Shown piece by piece: positions 81-8,911 of a stretch of DNA of 11,475 nt; within the stretch, counting starts at the first letter, position 1; each line of letters starts with the position of its first letter. Location of the stretch: positions 1 through 11,475 of the forward strand of contig WJIO01000399.1 in NCBI GenBank assembly GCA_014730235.1, given 5' to 3'. The position numbers were made by a program, and so were the translations under genes. This DNA comes from Candidatus Poribacteria bacterium. GTDB taxonomy: Bacteria > Poribacteria > DTPJ01 > WJIO01. The notes below the pieces were generated by a model, which was given only the letters and a program-made list of their open reading frames with translations, was not told the DNA's origin and did no database searches.

Positions 81-872
81 TTACTTATCTTTAATACTTC
101 CCCATGTAGAGGTTAGTTTGCCTGATGCCTCAACAGGTGTTATTCCCAGAGCTACGTTTATGCCTTCATTCATAAGCTCTTCTATATCATCTACTTCCAG
201 AGCAACGGCAAACAATCCGACTTCATCCAGGATACCATCAAGAAGTTCAGAGACGTTATTCTGCCAGCCCCCTATAATAACATCGGCTTGTCCTGCCGGA
301 GGTGGTGCTCCAATATCACCAGAGCCAAACTGAACAGCATCCTGATACATGGTAAACATTCCTTCACCATCGTATGTAGCTGTCATATAATGCCATTCAC
401 CCTTATCCACAGAACCTTTACCCCAGACTCCCTGCCATGCACCTGCTCTTTTGAAATAGCCTTCCCAGGTTGTACCATTATTAGCTATCCTGAAGGCATA
501 GTTGGCCTCGTTAAGACCATCATTTCTTTTGCCCAGAATGTGGCCATAGCTGCTTTCACTTTCGTTGACAAATGTCCATGCTGTTATTGTCCAGGCTTCC
601 TGTAAGTCAAGGCTATCGGAATCAGGAACTACCACAGGGGTACTTATACCGTCAAGAATGATGGCTGATCCGAATTTACCCTCCACCCATTCACCATTCA
701 TGATCTGACCGTGGTTTCCATTTCCGGAGCTATCATTGGCTATGTCACCATCATTTTCATCAAAAAGCCATATACCTGCTGCCATTTCCAGGTTTACTTT
801 AGCAGCAACTGATGCTGTGAATATAAAACTGATAAGAATGAATAGTTGTAAAAATATTAGCTTTTTCATCAT
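81..872 (-). CDS. Secreted LamG/concanavalin A-like jelly-roll domain protein
   Basis: The product is a 263-residue exported protein. Residues 1-24 form a signal peptide: basic MMKK, a hydrophobic stretch, and a likely cleavage site after SVAA. Residues about 30-230 match the LamG/concanavalin A-like (Laminin_G_3) fold: an opening 'GIWLFDENDGDIANDSSGNG' block, a 'GKFGSAIILDG' strand, 'WTITAWTFV', 'GEWHYMTATYDG', and a closing 'LDGILDEVGLFAVAL' block. A short tail, 'GKLTSTWGSIKDK', follows. There is no catalytic domain, so a binding or structural role outside the cytoplasm is the most that can be said; the ligand is unknown. The start is supported by AAAGGAG six bases upstream of the first of two adjacent ATG codons. 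The gene diverges from the lipoprotein gene at 1100. Similar stand-alone LamG proteins are, from memory, common in uncultured phyla such as Poribacteria. Confidence 0.85.
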   Translation of the reverse strand: MMKKLIFLQLFILISFIFTASVAAKVNLEMAAGIWLFDENDGDIANDSSGNGNHGQIMNGEWVEGKFGSAIILDGISTPVVVPDSDSLDLQEAWTITAWTFVNESESSYGHILGKRNDGLNEANYAFRIANNGTTWEGYFKRAGAWQGVWGKGSVDKGEWHYMTATYDGEGMFTMYQDAVQFGSGDIGAPPPAGQADVIIGGWQNNVSELLDGILDEVGLFAVALEVDDIEELMNEGINVALGITPVEASGKLTSTWGSIKDK

Positions 873-1099: not shown

Positions 1100-1945
1100 T
1101 TGAAAATTTATGCCAAAAATTCTATATGTCTGCTTATATCAATTGCTATCATTACCTTTGGTTATATTGGCTGCAACGAAGATTCTGATGAAAATGAAGA
1201 AGAAATATTGGCTGAAGCACCAATTTTGCCGCCGGATGAATCCATGCAGGTAAACACCTCAGCTTTCGATACAAAAAATCAGGGAGCTCCCGGAAATTTT
1301 AATGCCCTTACTATGTTAAATTATATCAATGCCTCAACAAGAGTTGTTATTATTAATTCTGCCGTTCTGACTGCTCTCAGTGTACCTGCGGCTTTATACT
1401 ATCAAGCCAAAAGCAATGAACCAATAGAGCAGGAGGATGGTTTATTACTCTGGAGCTACACAGCAGAAGTAGAATATTTTACCGTTACGGCGAATCTTTA
1501 TGGTATCTCGGAATTTGATAGAAATACATGGTCAATGATAATATCCACTGATAGTTCTGTTGTCCAAATCGAGGATTTTGAATATTTCAGAGGTGTGAGT
1601 GATAAACTCAATAAATCGGGATACTGGGAATTTTTTGATATGCAAACCCCGGAAGAACATAATCCAACGGTAAAAATTGAATGGGAAGTTGATTTGCTTT
1701 CTGAACAAATACAACTTTCAATCACAAATATAGACACACGAAGCGAACATTATCAGGATATCTTGCTTTATATCCTTGATAGGAATAAGGCAATAATGAA
1801 TTATGACGATGCTTCTAATGATGGAATATGGGAAATTGAGTGGAATACAAAAACAGAAGCAGGAAGTATAAATGTTCCCAACTATAACAATGGTGAAAAA
1901 GCCTGCTGGGATGCAAACAAGCAGGATATAGATTGTATCCAGTGA
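1100..1945 (+). CDS. Predicted acidic lipoprotein, unrecognised family, first gene of the che operon
   Basis: The 281-residue product is not recognised as a named family. Residues 1-24 form an export signal (MKIYAKN, then a hydrophobic stretch) ending in a lipobox-like YIGC, so Cys25 is a probable lipidation site. Tyr at -3 is less usual than Leu. A strongly acidic linker follows (NEDSDENEEE). The rest is rich in aromatic and beta-type segments, such as 'LLLWSYTAEVEYFTVTANLY' and 'WSMIISTD', and suggests a beta-sandwich-like domain. The C-terminus carries two cysteines, C269 and C279, in 'ACWDANKQDIDCIQ', which may form a disulfide outside the cytoplasm. The TTG start is supported by AAAGGAG nine bases upstream and by the signal peptide beginning there. 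The stop is 27 bp before cheA with no terminator between, so co-transcription is likely. A periplasmic or surface role linked to the receptor is inference. Confidence 0.8.
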   Translation: MKIYAKNSICLLISIAIITFGYIGCNEDSDENEEEILAEAPILPPDESMQVNTSAFDTKNQGAPGNFNALTMLNYINASTRVVIINSAVLTALSVPAALYYQAKSNEPIEQEDGLLLWSYTAEVEYFTVTANLYGISEFDRNTWSMIISTDSSVVQIEDFEYFRGVSDKLNKSGYWEFFDMQTPEEHNPTVKIEWEVDLLSEQIQLSITNIDTRSEHYQDILLYILDRNKAIMNYDDASNDGIWEIEWNTKTEAGSINVPNYNNGEKACWDANKQDIDCIQ

Positions 1946-1972: not shown

Positions 1973-4039
1973 ATGAATAAAATTACCCGCGAAATTGAAG
2001 AACTATCCATACAAATTATAATGGCGGATCCATCAAGCCTTAACTCCCTTTGCGACTTGAGACAGACTTTTGAGGACTTGCTTAAAGCAGCAGATGCAGA
2101 ATCTAATGAATATGTAGCTCAAATCGCCTCCGGTACTATTAAATATCTGGAGATAAAAGCAGGAGAAGATTCTGATGATATAACAGAAGTTCTGGAAATA
2201 GTTTCTCAGACAATCGAATCTCTAAGAAGCATAATCATTGATGAAAAAAATTCAGAAGATGTTAAATTCCCTAAACAAGTCTTATCATCCATAGAAAATA
2301 CTGAATCCGGGGAAGAGGATGACAAACCACAACAAGAACAGGATCCATTGAATGATCCTGTTCTAATAACTGAATTTATATCAGAAGCAAGGGATCACCT
2401 GGATGAAGCTAACACACAGCTTTTAGTTCTGGAGGAAAATCCAGAAGATAAAGAAGCTGTAGATGCAGTATACAGGGCTTTTCATACCATAAAAGGTGTG
2501 GCAGGATTTCTCAGTTTGGATAACCTGGGAGAACTGGCTCATGAAACAGAAAATTTGCTGGATAACGTTCGCAGCGGAAATATTTCCATATCAAGCGTTT
2601 TGCTGGATGCAGCATTTACATCTCTTGATACATTGATGCAGATGATCCAGAACACTGAAGACTCACTTCTAAAAGGCGAGGAAATATCCTGTGGTGAAAT
2701 TCCCGGAGATATTCTGGATTCAATAAAAAATCTATATGCAAAAAATAAAGATGGAAACAATCAGATTGATGAAAAAAAGGATATAGATAATATCAATTTA
2801 GATCTAAATCCTGAAAAACCGAGTATTCGAGAAACTATAAAAATTGACACAGAAAGACTTGATAAACTTGTAGATACTATTGGTGAATTGGTTATTGCCG
2901 AATCCATGGTTACCCAGGATTCCCGAGTGACAAATCTTGTCAGTGAATATCCTCGCATATCCCGGAATATATCTCACCTGAGTAAAATAACCAGACAATT
3001 ACAGGAAATTGGTATGTCCCTGCGTTTGGTTCCTATCCGACCGGTTTTCCAGAGAATGGCCAGGTTGGTGAGGGATTTAAAAAGAAAAACAGGAAAAGAA
3101 ATTGAGCTTGTAATATCAGGAGAAGAAACTGAAGTTGACAAAAGCATTGTTGAGAATATAAGCGATCCTCTGACCCATATGATCAGAAACGCTATTGATC
3201 ACGGTATAGAATCAACCACAGAAGATCGCCTTCAAATTGGCAAACCTGCCGCTGGAAAAATTGAACTCAGGGCCTTTCAGAAAAGCGGAAGCATATTTAT
3301 TGAAGTAGAAGATGATGGAAGAGGATTGGATAAAGAAGCAATATTATCCAAAGCAATAGAAAAAGGACTTGTAAGCGATGGAGAATCAATATCTGATAGA
3401 GAACTTTATAATTTAATATTTGCCCCGGGGTTTTCCACTGCCAAAAACGTAACTGAAGTATCCGGTCGTGGGGTGGGTATGGATGTGGTAAGAAAAAACA
3501 TCCAGACCTTAAGAGGGCAGGTAAATATATCATCTGTCCCACAAAAGGGCACAAATTTCAGTATTCATTTGCCTTTAACCCTGGTAATTATAGATGGAAC
3601 TGTAGTGAAGGTTGGCACCGAGCGATATATAATACCAACTCTATCTGTTATTGAATCCCATAAACCCTTGGAAAGTCAGATATTCAAGGCAATAGGCAAA
3701 GGTGAAATGGTATCAATTCGTGATCAGGTATTACCCCTTTTCCGACTTTCCCATCTTCTTGGTATCAAAAACGCTGTGGAAAAACCCATAGATGGCCTGG
3801 TGATAATAGTTGAAAACGAAAGAAAACAAATCGGTTTACTGGTTGACGATTTTATCGGTCATCAACAGGTTGTGATTAAGGGATTGGAAGATAACATGGG
3901 TTTAACCCGATGGATTTCAGGAGGAACTATAATGGCCGATGGAAAAGTGGGTCTGGTTCTTGATGTTGATAGCATTATGAGACTGGCTATGGGTGTAGAG
4001 AAAGAAAATGATAGAAAATATAACAAACAAACGGGGTGA
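1973..4039 (+). CDS. cheA: Chemotaxis histidine kinase CheA, no P2, with extra N-terminal helical domain
   Basis: CheA autophosphorylates in complex with receptor and CheW, then passes phosphate to CheY and CheB. This 688-residue version has P1 (HPt) at about 128-235 with the phospho-accepting His171 in AFHTIKG; P3 dimerisation helices from about 284 ('IKIDTERLDKLVDTIGELV'); P4 ATPase at about 390-540 with the N box around N406 (RNAIDHG), G1 DDGRG at 447-451, F box FAPGFSTA and G2 GRGVGMD at 498-504; and the CheW-like P5 at about 545-680. Only about 45 residues join P1 to P3, so the CheY-binding P2 domain is missing. Residues 1-95 form a further predicted helical domain without a phosphorylatable HPt motif. 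The ATG at 1973 has only a weak AAGG upstream, but no better start is visible. The stop lies just before cheW. All key catalytic residues appear intact, so an active kinase is expected. Confidence 0.96.
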   Translation: MNKITREIEELSIQIIMADPSSLNSLCDLRQTFEDLLKAADAESNEYVAQIASGTIKYLEIKAGEDSDDITEVLEIVSQTIESLRSIIIDEKNSEDVKFPKQVLSSIENTESGEEDDKPQQEQDPLNDPVLITEFISEARDHLDEANTQLLVLEENPEDKEAVDAVYRAFHTIKGVAGFLSLDNLGELAHETENLLDNVRSGNISISSVLLDAAFTSLDTLMQMIQNTEDSLLKGEEISCGEIPGDILDSIKNLYAKNKDGNNQIDEKKDIDNINLDLNPEKPSIRETIKIDTERLDKLVDTIGELVIAESMVTQDSRVTNLVSEYPRISRNISHLSKITRQLQEIGMSLRLVPIRPVFQRMARLVRDLKRKTGKEIELVISGEETEVDKSIVENISDPLTHMIRNAIDHGIESTTEDRLQIGKPAAGKIELRAFQKSGSIFIEVEDDGRGLDKEAILSKAIEKGLVSDGESISDRELYNLIFAPGFSTAKNVTEVSGRGVGMDVVRKNIQTLRGQVNISSVPQKGTNFSIHLPLTLVIIDGTVVKVGTERYIIPTLSVIESHKPLESQIFKAIGKGEMVSIRDQVLPLFRLSHLLGIKNAVEKPIDGLVIIVENERKQIGLLVDDFIGHQQVVIKGLEDNMGLTRWISGGTIMADGKVGLVLDVDSIMRLAMGVEKENDRKYNKQTG

Positions 4040-4044
4040 TACTT

Positions 4045-4548
4045 ATGCCGGTTGAAAATAAAACAATTCAGGAGCAAACACCAAGTCAAAATCAAGAGAA
4101 ATCTTTTTCATCGGAATTAGCCGGCAAATACCTTACGTTCTGGTTGAATAATGAGGAATATGGTATTGAAATTCTGAAGGTTAAAGAGATCATTGGTCTG
4201 ATGGATATAACACGAGTTCCCCGAATGCCTGAACATATTAAAGGTGTCTTAAACTTGCGGGGAAAGATAATCCCAGTTATTGATTTAAAAACTAAATTTA
4301 ATATGGGGGTGACTGAGTATACTGAAAAAACGTGTATTATTGTAGTTTATTTGTCTCAGGATGGTCAACATAATATGGTGGGTATCCTGGTTGATGCTGT
4401 ATCTGAAGTTGTTGACATTAGCGATCAGCAAATTGAGCAGACTCCGTCATTTAATCCTGAGATTAACACTGAATTTGTTATGGGAATTGGCAAAACGGAA
4501 CAAAATATAAAAATACTTCTGGATATAGTAAAAGCTGTTTCATTTTAA
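4045..4548 (+). CDS. cheW: Chemotaxis coupling protein CheW
   Basis: CheW links receptors to the P5 domain of CheA in the membrane-associated signalling array. The product is 167 residues from the ATG at 4045. The first 25 or so residues are polar and probably disordered. The CheW fold then runs from 'YLTFWLNNEEYGIEILKVKE' to the end, including the hallmark 'VLNLRGKIIPVIDLKTKF' with Arg72 and Gly73, and 'GILVDAVSEVVDI'. An in-frame GTG at 4036 would add three residues and overlap the cheA stop, but GGGGTG at 4033-4038 sits six bases before the ATG and fits better as its ribosome binding site. The five-base gap after cheA suggests translational coupling. Length and motifs are typical, and it is the only adaptor in the cassette. 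Confidence 0.96.
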   Translation: MPVENKTIQEQTPSQNQEKSFSSELAGKYLTFWLNNEEYGIEILKVKEIIGLMDITRVPRMPEHIKGVLNLRGKIIPVIDLKTKFNMGVTEYTEKTCIIVVYLSQDGQHNMVGILVDAVSEVVDISDQQIEQTPSFNPEINTEFVMGIGKTEQNIKILLDIVKAVSF

Positions 4549-4576: not shown

Positions 4577-6553
4577 ATGACAAGAAAATTAGGTTTAACT
4601 GGTAAAATGATTATATTTTTCCTTCTTGTAGGTATAATCCCCTTTGGTTTAATAGGTGGTATATCTTTATGGAAGGCTTCCAATGCACTGTCAGACGCGG
4701 CATACAGCAAGTTAATAGCTGTTCGGGAAACAATTAAAGATGACATTCAGGATTATTATAAAGAAAGAATAGCTAATGCAGAAGCTTTTATGTATGATCC
4801 ATATATTATTTCAGCTATTAATGACATGCATAAAGCATCTTCAAAGGTCATGGAAGGGGATTTGGATGGTCTTCGGATGTTGAGCGATCCTGATTTCAAG
4901 TCAGCTTATAATAAACATTATCCCAGGTTTAAACATTACATGGATACATATGGTTATCATGATTTACTGCTAATATGTGCTAAACAAGGATATGTGATTT
5001 TTTCTGTGGCCCAGCATTCTGATTTTGGCAAATCACTTCATAACAAAGAAAACAGTCTGAAAGAGGCGTGGGAGAAAGCTAAAAATACAGGCAAAGCTGT
5101 AATTGTAGATACCAAATTATACAAACCTGCTGGTAATGTTCCCATTCAATTTATTGCCACACCAATTATTGAAGGTAACGAAATTTTGGGTGTTTTGGCT
5201 TTACAGATAGGAACAGAGCATGTTAATAGAACAGTTATGAGAAGAGCTGGTATGGGATCAACTGGTGAAGTCTATCTGGTGGGTCAGGATAAGCTTATGC
5301 GTTCGGATTCATATCTCGATCCCACCAATCATTCCCTGGAAGCGTCGCTTAGAAATCCGGATAAAGGTAAGATTGATACTCCTGCATCCAGAGAAGCTTT
5401 GTCAGGTATAACATCTGAAAAAATAATCGTAGACTACAACGGCAATAGTGTCTTATCGGCATATACACCTATAAATATAGGGGATATTAAATGGGCCCTT
5501 ATAGCTGAAATTGACAAATCAGAGGCATTTGCCGCTGTTAATAGTCTTAAATACGCAACGATCTTTATAGCCATTATTACAACCGCAGGGGTTATTGGTG
5601 CTGCTGTATTAATTGTAAGAAATGTTATTGTGGGCGGAGTAGTTTCACCAATCAAAAAAACAATAAGTGAAATAACTATCGGTTCGGAACAGGTGGCATC
5701 TGCTTCTCAGCAAATGGCATCAACCTCTCAACAAATTGCAAGTGCTTCCAGTGAACAAGCAGCTTCCCTCGAGGAAACATCCTCTTCCCTGGAGGAAATG
5801 TCTGCTATGACAAAACAAAACGCAGAAAATGCCCAAAAAGCCAATAACCTGGCCATAAATGCCAAAAAAACTGCCCAAACCGGAAATGAATACATGAAAA
5901 ATTTAAACAAAGCTATGGATGATATTTTCAATTCCGGTAAAGAAACAGCCAAAATAGCAAAAACTATTGAGGATATAGCGTTTCAAACAAACCTTCTTGC
6001 TTTGAACGCTGCTGTTGAAGCAGCCCGTGCTGGCGAAGCCGGAAGCGGATTTGCTGTTGTGGCTCAGGAAGTAAGAAATCTGGCTCAAAGGGCCGGAGAT
6101 GCCGCAAGGGATACAGGAAGTCTTATACAGGAATCCACAGCAAAGATTGATGTAGGACTTGAAGTCTCTAATGATACAGCCAACGCTCTTGATGAGATAA
6201 ATTCAAATGTGGAAGAGGTTTCTGAACTGCTGAGTGAAATAACCCTCGCCAGTAAAGAGCAAGCCCAGGGCATAGAACAGATTAATATTGCAGTTGCCGA
6301 GATGGATGTGACAACCCAATCCAACGCAGCAAGCTCTGAAGAATCGGCATCAGCCAGTCAGGAGTTATCGGCCCAGGCCGGGCAGTTAAACCAGGTTGTT
6401 AATTCTCTTGCAAAAATTATAGGTTTGAATGGAAATGGTAATAAAAAATCCTCTGCTGTAACATCCCTTAAATATGGAATAAATACAACTAAAACAGAGG
6501 GGGTAAATCAAAATAAAATCCCTCTGGATGATGATGATTTTGGTGATTTCTAA
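4577..6553 (+). CDS. Methyl-accepting chemotaxis protein with Cache-type sensor, HAMP not recognisable
   Basis: The 658-residue transmembrane receptor has TM1 at about 11-31, an extracytoplasmic region at about 32-325, TM2 at about 327-348, and a cytoplasmic signalling domain. The sensor looks like a double Cache (dCache_1) domain: a long first helix '[19 protein letters not shown]', then '[20 protein letters not shown]', typical of such ligand-binding modules. The ligand cannot be predicted. After VSPI (356-359) the sequence passes almost directly into the first methylation helix ([17 protein letters not shown], from 392), leaving no room for a normal HAMP. The kinase-contact tip at about 465-510 is canonical ([20 protein letters not shown]). 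The protein ends in an acidic, Phe-terminated tail, DDDDFGDF. It should cluster with CheW and CheA and be modified by CheR, CheB and CheD. Its TAA stop overlaps the cheR ATG by one base. Confidence 0.95.
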
Positions 6554-7353
6554 TGAATCAAAGAACGTTTAACCAATACAAAGACATAATATATGAGAAA
6601 AGCGGCATTAAATTAAACAAAAATAAAATTCCCTTGTTATATGCTCGTATTGGTAAACGTCTTCACGCATTAGGATTCAGCGATCACAATAAATATCTCG
6701 AATTCCTTATGGATAATAATAATGATGAAATCACCCAATTGATTGACGCTATATCAACAAATGTAACAAGTTTTTTTCGCGAAGCTGACCACTTTGTATT
6801 TCTGGAAGAAAAATTAAAAGAACTAACTCTGGAAGGACAAAAGAAATTCCGAATATGGTCATCAGCTTGTTCAACAGGAGAAGAACCATACTCTATTGCA
6901 TTAACTGTTATGGAAAGCTTGGGAAATAAATTCGACACGAAAATCCTGGCAACAGATATATCAACACAAGCCCTTGAAAAAGCTAAAAACGGTTTATATT
7001 CAGATAAAAACATCAAAAATATTTCTCCTGTTATGGTTAATAACTACTTCAAGAAGGAATTCAACCATAAATTAAAAAATTATGAAGTTAAACCTGTATT
7101 AAAGAACATGATAATATTCAGGCGTCTCAATCTATCAAAACCACCTTTCCCTATGAATGGCCCTCTGGATTTTGTATTTTGCAGAAATGTTATGATTTAT
7201 TTTGATAAAAAAACAAGACAGATGTTAGTTGATGAGATATACAGATTACTTGGTCACGGGAAATATCTCTTTCTGGGTCATTCAGAAAGTCTGATAGGGT
7301 TGTCATGCAAGTTAAATTCTGTTAAGCCTTCTATATATGTAAAAATGAGTTAA
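6553..7353 (+). CDS. cheR: Chemoreceptor glutamate methyltransferase CheR
   Basis: CheR transfers methyl groups from S-adenosylmethionine to receptor glutamates during adaptation. The 266-residue product has the usual helical N-terminal domain ('YKDIIYEKSGIKL', then 'ISTNVTSFFRE') and a Rossmann-like methyltransferase domain. The SAM-binding block RIWSSACSTGEEPYSIA is at 100-116, the acidic ATD at 133-135, and the late motif DFVFCRNVMIYFD at 206-218. Length is typical for the family. The ATG shares a base with the mcp stop (TAATG), and GGTGA six bases upstream may assist a reinitiating ribosome, so its synthesis is probably coupled to that of the receptor. No extra domains such as TPR repeats are present. 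It appears complete and functional. Confidence 0.97.
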   Translation: MNQRTFNQYKDIIYEKSGIKLNKNKIPLLYARIGKRLHALGFSDHNKYLEFLMDNNNDEITQLIDAISTNVTSFFREADHFVFLEEKLKELTLEGQKKFRIWSSACSTGEEPYSIALTVMESLGNKFDTKILATDISTQALEKAKNGLYSDKNIKNISPVMVNNYFKKEFNHKLKNYEVKPVLKNMIIFRRLNLSKPPFPMNGPLDFVFCRNVMIYFDKKTRQMLVDEIYRLLGHGKYLFLGHSESLIGLSCKLNSVKPSIYVKMS

Positions 7354-7365
7354 GATGATTGTATT

Positions 7366-7842
7366 ATGAAACATATAGTAGGACTGGGAGAGATTAAAGT
7401 ATCCTCTAATCGGAATGATATACTTATAGCCCATTCCTTAGGCTCATGTCTTGGAGTTACAGCTTATGATCCGGTTATATGTGCTGGTGGTATGGCCCAT
7501 CTAATGTTACCTTCCTCCAGCATAGATAAAAATAAAGCCAGGGAAAAACCAGGTATGTTTGTAGACAGCGGGTTAAAGGCTTTGTTTGATGATATTTACA
7601 GTTTAGGTGCTAGAAAAGATCGAATTATTTTGAAAGTAGCTGGCGGAAGCAGGATTATTGATAAAAATGGTTTTTTTGAAATTGGTTTGAAAAACTATTC
7701 CGTTCTTTCCAGAATATTATCTGCTGAGAAGTTTTACATAGCAGGGAAAGATATAGGGGGTATAAAACCGAGAAAGATGATAATAGAAATTAATACCGGG
7801 CTTGTTGTTGTAAAATGTGATGGTAAGTTAATTGAATTGTAA
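7366..7842 (+). CDS. cheD: Chemoreceptor glutamine deamidase CheD
   Basis: CheD hydrolyses selected receptor glutamines to glutamates, making them methylatable; in other bacteria it also partners CheC. The 158-residue product carries the family motif SLGSCLGV with the nucleophile Cys28, and GGMAHLMLP with His45, followed by KVAGGS and a C-terminal 'GGIKPRKMIIEINTG'. Aligning by eye with the Thermotoga CheD triad (Thr21, Cys27, His44), the Thr position is Ala22 here ('LIAHSLGSC'), while Cys and His are kept. The start has little Shine-Dalgarno complementarity and lies 12 bp after the cheR stop, which suggests translation depends on coupling. No cheC lies in the window, so CheD probably acts only as a deamidase here. 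Confidence 0.95.
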   Translation: MKHIVGLGEIKVSSNRNDILIAHSLGSCLGVTAYDPVICAGGMAHLMLPSSSIDKNKAREKPGMFVDSGLKALFDDIYSLGARKDRIILKVAGGSRIIDKNGFFEIGLKNYSVLSRILSAEKFYIAGKDIGGIKPRKMIIEINTGLVVVKCDGKLIEL

Positions 7843-7876
7843 TTTTGAAAATCGAAACAGGGGGAGTTAGTTGGAT

Positions 7877-8911
7877 ATGGTCAGGGTTTTAATAATTGAT
7901 GATTCAGCGGTTACAAGACACATACTCGCTGCTGAAATTTCCAGGGATCCTGAGATAAAAGTTGTGGGTATGGCGGCAGACGCATATGAAGGCAGGGATA
8001 AAATAATCGAGTTATCCCCGGATGTTGTAACTCTGGATATTGAAATGCCGGGAATAGATGGTATGACATTTTTAAGGAAGATTATGCAGTATCATCCGAT
8101 GCCGGTTATTATCGTGTCATCTCTGATATCCCAGAATCAAAAATTAGCTGAGGAAGCTATAAAAAATGGCGCAACGGCTTTTGTAAGTAAACCAAATAAA
8201 GAAAAAAATCTCAAAGAGATTTCAAAGGAACTTACCAGCAAAATTAAAACAGCATCCCGGATTAATTACAATGATTTACCAATCAGTAAACCCGGAAATT
8301 TTAAAGGCAGTCATAATTTCTCCAATAATAAAACCTCGGATAAGATTATAGCTATAGGTGCATCTACAGGTGGAACGCAAGCTATAACATCTATGCTGCA
8401 TCAATTACCCGTAAACATCCCCGGGATTTTAATTGTCCAGCATATGCCGGAGAATTTTACAGCAAATTTCGCTGAAAGATTGGATTCTGAATGTAAAGTA
8501 AAAGTAAGAGAGGCAAAAAACGGTGATTTAGTGACTCCCGGTAAAGTTCTGATTGCACCTGGTAACAAGCATATGATAATTCGCAAAAACTATAATACTA
8601 ATAATTACTATGCTATAATAAAAGATGGTCCACCCATAAAACATCATCGCCCATCTGTTGATGTGCTTTTCAAATCAGTTGCCTTAACAGCAGGTAATAA
8701 CGCAGTAGGTATTCTGATGACAGGTATGGGGAATGATGGTGCAGAAGGTTTACTTAATATGAAACAAAATGGGGCAATAACAATTGCTCAGGATGAAAAA
8801 AGCAGCGTTGTGTTTGGAATGCCTAAAGAAGCAATAAAGTTAGATGCTGTTAACCATGTAATGAATTTAAACAAAATACCAGAATTTTTGATCAGTCAAT
8901 TCAATAAGTAA
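7877..8911 (+). CDS. cheB: Chemotaxis protein-glutamate methylesterase/deamidase CheB
   Basis: CheB removes methyl groups from receptors after CheA phosphorylates its receiver domain. From the ATG at 7877 the protein has 344 residues: a receiver domain at 1-120 with acidic D8 and D9 and phospho-acceptor D54 in TLDIEMPG; a linker at about 125-150; and a methylesterase domain with Ser163 (GASTGG), His189 (QHMPENF) and Asp287 (GMGNDG), matching the E. coli triad S164, H190, D286. A TTG at 7871 would add two residues. AGGGGGAG at 7859-7866 is four bases before that TTG and ten before the ATG, so spacing does not decide; the ATG was chosen because CheB proteins usually begin 'MxRVLxxDDSA'. It is the last gene of the operon, 28-34 bp after cheD and upstream of a clear terminator. 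It looks fully active. Confidence 0.95.
   Translation: MVRVLIIDDSAVTRHILAAEISRDPEIKVVGMAADAYEGRDKIIELSPDVVTLDIEMPGIDGMTFLRKIMQYHPMPVIIVSSLISQNQKLAEEAIKNGATAFVSKPNKEKNLKEISKELTSKIKTASRINYNDLPISKPGNFKGSHNFSNNKTSDKIIAIGASTGGTQAITSMLHQLPVNIPGILIVQHMPENFTANFAERLDSECKVKVREAKNGDLVTPGKVLIAPGNKHMIIRKNYNTNNYYAIIKDGPPIKHHRPSVDVLFKSVALTAGNNAVGILMTGMGNDGAEGLLNMKQNGAITIAQDEKSSVVFGMPKEAIKLDAVNHVMNLNKIPEFLISQFNK

Follow-up and report, generated by a model that had tools for sequence, protein, structure and literature searches.

The gene directly before cheA in this Poribacteria genome probably encodes a general envelope lipoprotein that was captured by the che operon, is transcribed with it, and takes no functional part in the CheA pathway. 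We give this reading a probability of about 0.62. The window, the whole stretch of 11,475 nucleotides analyzed here, corresponds to contig C345 in a genome of 5.5 Mb (G000). The adjacency of the lipoprotein gene and cheA is a real observation, made so far in this genome only, and the pathway itself is ordinary. We propose that, after export, the protein would be cleaved and lipidated at Cys25 and anchored in the outer membrane, perhaps turned outward. Its flexible acidic tether would carry a helix and a beta-meander, the latter closed off by a disulfide near the C terminus. Its gene would have come between the FliA-type che promoter and cheA in this lineage and would thus be transcribed with the operon, and the protein would play no working part in the CheA pathway. 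Membrane location, lipidation, outer membrane anchoring and the lack of a signaling role are what we infer, as is whatever is said here of its biochemical function. If correct, the case shows that operon position can mislead, as co-transcription need not mean shared function. A literature search returned no published lipoprotein in a chemotaxis operon.

The lipoprotein, its family and its predicted fold

The lipoprotein gene (1100-1945; positions are on the + strand unless stated otherwise) encodes 281 amino acids and starts with TTG, and a Shine-Dalgarno sequence, AAAGGAG (1084-1090), can be read directly 9 nt 5' of this start. The signal peptide (residues 1 to 24, 1100-1171), recognized from the sequence and its alignment with 12 relatives, has an n-region with Lys residues followed by a hydrophobic stretch and F-G-Y-I-G-C25. 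Cys25 (1172-1174), the expected lipidation site, does not vary among the 13 family members, and the residue before it is always G, S or A. Tyr at lipobox position -3 is unusual and atypical for lipoproteins. With its charged n-region, hydrophobic core and lipobox Cys at +1, the protein has the features of a bacterial lipoprotein with a type II signal peptide. The sequence-only reading had pointed to a signal peptide with a lipobox-like YIGC, an acidic linker and a C-terminal Cys pair, and all three are real. The acidic linker CNEDSDENEEEI was confirmed, and the linker NEDSDENEEEIL (1175-1210) is predicted to be disordered, with pLDDT values under 50 at mature residues 1 to 4 and 6 to 13. Cys269 and Cys279 lie in a C-terminal motif (1904-1936), and both cysteines are kept in 12 of the 13 members. 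The member from the single other genome of the same order in our comparison (G001) misses both cysteines together, as expected for a bonded pair, and a disulfide between them is therefore probable.

The family comprises 13 sequences, the window lipoprotein and 12 relatives, all from one alignment. A scan of genome contigs with the single sequence gave no relatives, and a three-row alignment gave eight loci. The relatives belong to Poribacteria, Balneolota, Latescibacterota and Bacteroidia: they are carried by G001 (38% identity), two further Poribacteria genomes (G059 and G057), a Latescibacterota MAG, a Bacteroidia MAG and four Balneolota genomes. Blastp E values range from 5e-60 to 2e-10. 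The hallmarks in the alignment (A2) are the lipobox, a PP.LPP..SM tract, a helix, a W/G/Y-rich meander and a C-terminal YNNGEKACWD...D..C-like motif; the window protein has all of them, and their order, from the lipobox Cys through the proline tract, helix and W/G/Y-rich body to the C-terminal motif, is the same in all 13 sequences. The window lipoprotein has no match among Pfam or NCBIfam models, and the other members gave isolated matches only, at E values of 0.007 or weaker. Judged by sequence, this is an undescribed, compact lipoprotein family common to four phyla, and with its well-predicted fold and lack of a Pfam or NCBIfam model it merits a name. Fodinibius salsisoli has three copies inside 6 kb (L016, 9998-15801) and an Aliifodinibius MAG has two (L018). 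No relatives were found on the plasmids or viral contigs searched. The protein tree is weakly supported, and vertical descent is not demonstrated, because the Poribacteria members cluster in just 55% of bootstraps.

An AlphaFold model of the mature protein (m37c1594c928b), made with a 12-sequence alignment as input, has a mean pLDDT of 87 and a pTM of 0.82. In this model, the first ~13 mature residues are disordered and are followed by a long helix at mature residues 45 to 79 (1304-1408) and by about a dozen strands in an antiparallel beta-meander at mature residues 92 to 234 (1445-1873). The beta-rich body of the sequence-only reading is thus borne out by the strands, but the long helix had been overlooked. 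Foldseek gave no match to PDB or BFVD at E values up to 0.001. Borrelia OspA entries rank first in VIA-align (Z up to 8.4, ~5 A rmsd over ~143 residues), a range that unrelated folds also reach, and the Foldseek E value for OspA, 0.11, is not significant. Several MORN proteins are among the weak fold matches in BFVD, and no MORN model is among the Pfam matches of 12 family members. In our reading, the OspA-like and MORN-like resemblances of the model probably reflect the shape of an extended beta-meander and not kinship. A sequence search of the PDB gave chance-level matches only, including RcsF across a 35-residue proline-rich stretch. We also rejected a periplasmic substrate-binding protein, as Pfam gave no match and the model shows a helix and a beta-meander instead of a two-lobed alpha/beta fold.

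Promoter and transcription of the operon

A FliA (sigma-28)-type promoter, TAAAGATTTATCTGAAATTTTCCGATA (983-1009), ends 90 bp upstream of the lipoprotein start codon and is the sole zero-mismatch site in the window. Its core consists of TAAA and CCGATA, and order-1 shuffling of 873-1099 yields a 10/10 match in 0.025% of cases. In G001, cheA is preceded by TAAAGTTTTTAAAATTTATTGCCGATA, which ends 95 bp before the start with nothing coding in between, and the TAAAG-N16-CCGATA motif thus has the same 16-bp spacing before the window lipoprotein and before G001 cheA. No second FliA-type copy was found before window cheA, where the best match is 7/10 and not above background. The same spacing stands out genome-wide, which speaks for a genuine motif: TAAAG-N-CCGATA in G000 peaks at 16 bp (23/78 over eleven spacings, binomial 3e-7), and the peak in G001 is weaker (14/68, 0.003). 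In G016, the motif precedes motA/motB-like genes (names read from sequence). Two FliA/WhiG-family sigma factors in G000 score over the curated cut-off. At the sequence level, both marks of FliA (sigma-28) regulation are thus present, namely a promoter of this type ahead of the operon and a sigma factor of the FliA family encoded by the genome. The relatives of the lipoprotein in other genomes lack the motif (best 7 to 8 out of 10), which marks the promoter as that of the che operon.

Because the motif precedes the lipoprotein gene here and cheA in G001, and there is no second copy, the lipoprotein gene is probably co-transcribed with che, and we infer that both would be transcribed from 983-1009. 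The earlier statement that the gene leads the operon is supported by the 10/10 promoter core, and that of a 27-bp distance to cheA (gap at 1946-1972) with no terminator was confirmed: no terminator-like site was found on the + strand in 850-2100, and the sole terminator-like match (1901-1922) is on the - strand. It is unlikely that the lipoprotein gene is a pure chance neighbor with its own promoter and with the cheA promoter inside the lipoprotein gene. No che genes were found beside the relatives in other genomes, and sigma-70-like sites can be found inside the gene, but these sites are consensus matches in AT-rich DNA, and the short gap, the lack of a + strand terminator and the position of the FliA-type motif, found before cheA in G001 and before the lipoprotein gene here with no second copy, argue against independent transcription. 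The fallback of the sequence-only reading, a chance neighbor, comes closest to the evidence in other respects, and it is the shared promoter position that argues for co-transcription.

FliA control could also mean that the protein is a surface binder or envelope factor made only in flagellated cells. The FliA-type promoter is in line with this, and so is a genome that encodes flagellin, FliM and sigma factors of the FliA family. The mature protein starts with CNEDSDE, polar and then acidic at +3/+4, which resembles the export signal of surface-exposed lipoproteins of Bacteroidetes, where polar and then acidic residues follow the lipidated Cys (PMC5080379). However, this signal was described for Bacteroidetes, and Poribacteria are another phylum, and surface exposure is a lead only; moreover, the promoter is absent from the relatives in other genomes. 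We consider a motility-phase role distinctly unlikely.

Capture of the gene by the operon remains our preferred reading, and comparison with one relative suggests that it slipped between promoter and operon. The lipoprotein gene thus probably separates cheA from the che promoter and shares a transcript with che, a situation perhaps limited to this lineage. The most economical history has a promoter that is che's own and a lipoprotein gene that now stands between it and cheA; alternatively, it is possible that a promoter-lipoprotein-cheA arrangement was lost in G001.

The FliA-type sites of these genomes also showed a wider pattern. G000 (C373 and C415) and G001 (C102 and C7) each have two FliA/WhiG-family sigma factors, and one of the two genes in G001 is ~1.5 kb from cheB. 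In both genomes, the flagellin promoters show a related site spaced by 15 bp (TCGATATA or ACGATATA), whereas the che and two-component promoters have a 16-bp spacing with CCGATA; perhaps there is one promoter class per sigma factor. Intergenic TAAAG-N16-CCGATA sites are mostly 5' of response regulator or histidine kinase genes (nine in G000 and five in G001, by Pfam), for example at L082, L084, L085, L088, L090, L100, L102, L106 and L114, and may represent a FliA-type regulon rich in two-component signaling. The stand-alone receiver behind such a site at L102 is a candidate CheY.

The che pathway and the neighborhoods of the relatives

The operon consists, by Pfam, of cheA with Hpt, dimerization, HATPase and CheW domains (1973-4039), cheW (4036-4548), a methyl-accepting receptor (MCP) with a dCache_1 sensor (4577-6553), cheR (6553-7353), cheD (7366-7842) and cheB (7871-8911). 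The first ~125 residues of CheA, before Hpt (1973-2360), are not matched confidently by any Pfam model, but their start is kept in the ortholog of G001, and this is perhaps a degenerate or unrecognized domain. The MCP gene lies between cheW and cheR, unlike in the G001 operon. FliM and flagellin were found in the genome, together with this one CheA and this one MCP, and the output of the pathway is therefore most simply the flagellum. The sequence-only reading had correctly noted that a lipoprotein is no standard che component and had offered two roles for it. That it is part of a surface structure controlled by the pathway has nothing but its position at the head of the operon in its favor and, with the flagellum as the simplest output, is extremely improbable.

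The other role, in which the lipoprotein captures a ligand and presents it to the dCache receptor like a binding protein, would fit its place in one operon with the sole MCP found in the genome, and, unless the lipoprotein is on the cell surface, both proteins would face the periplasm. But the helix plus beta-meander model has no binding-protein fold and no significant PDB match. Furthermore, the G001 lipoprotein gene, MCP gene and cheA operon are on three different contigs (C210, C460 and C7), and relatives occur in genomes where CheA was not found (G057, G059, G084 and G086, 4 of the 10 lipoprotein-carrying genomes, some of which are incomplete assemblies). We regard ligand presentation as very improbable. 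It is quite improbable, too, that the lipoprotein was recruited into chemosensing in a broader sense, being placed under flagellar sigma control, binding a ligand at the surface or in the periplasm and altering the input of the dCache receptor; if true, it would be made alongside the sole receptor and kinase found in the genome. G057 has two FliM genes and no CheA was found in it, at a genome completeness of 91%.

The capture reading draws most on the neighborhoods of the 12 relatives. Searches with the window Che proteins (tblastn and blastp) of the DNA around each of them, several loci being short contigs, found no che gene; a CheB match in L015 spans the receiver domain only. Recurrent linkage with che genes, the test for a core chemosensory component, was thus not seen. 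According to the sequence-only reading, recurrent adjacency to cheA would support a functional link and homologues scattered without che genes would refute it, and the latter is what the relatives showed. Their neighbors are varied and by sequence mostly housekeeping or metabolic, with a shared context only among close Balneolota relatives. Among them, G057 has glgC-like and RimK-like genes, the Bacteroidia MAG has genes resembling those for purine biosynthesis and adenylate kinase, and the Balneolota loci have aminotransferase- and dehydrogenase-like genes. In G001, cheA has 377 bp upstream on its contig with no lipoprotein gene, and the lipoprotein gene is followed by a convergent LamG gene, so that, despite the short contigs, the flanks of each gene exclude direct adjacency. 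Of 84 Poribacteria genomes, 4 carry the lipoprotein and 9 carry cheA; the 2 that carry both say little, because they belong to one order. A secreted LamG protein is also encoded in the window (81-872, - strand). A link via this neighbor, which the lipoprotein genes of the window and of G001 have in common, was rejected, as LamG domains number 90 in G000 and 66 in G001, a striking expansion.

Four points temper this conclusion. Genes on one transcript can have a common role; the search with one alignment may miss divergent che-linked branches, and several loci are on short contigs; the contig of G001 reaches no more than 377 bp upstream of cheA; and a che link may be conserved within the genus or family, the same-order comparison being with one genome.

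Comparison with known systems

The window protein is predicted to share with Borrelia OspA, a surface lipoprotein with a single-layer beta-sheet, the lipidated N terminus, the flexible tether and the extended antiparallel meander; it adds a long helix and a probable C-terminal disulfide, and sequence similarity was not detected. With MORN-repeat proteins it has in common an antiparallel meander in which W, G and Y recur, but it has no Pfam MORN match and no clear sequence repeat. As in Bacteroidetes lipoproteins with an export signal (LES), polar and then acidic residues come just after the Cys, but the host belongs to another phylum, and surface exposure is a possibility that this resemblance suggests. 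The che operon of G001 has cheY and cheX between cheD and cheB (L034, 6241-7093), whereas that of the window has neither (7842-7871). All six genes of a flagellar chemotaxis operon, cheA-cheW-mcp-cheR-cheD-cheB, are present and ordinary in the window, and the FliA-type promoter is shared with classical late flagellar regulons. What also sets this operon apart from the usual flagellar chemotaxis operon is the lipoprotein gene that lies between the promoter and cheA.
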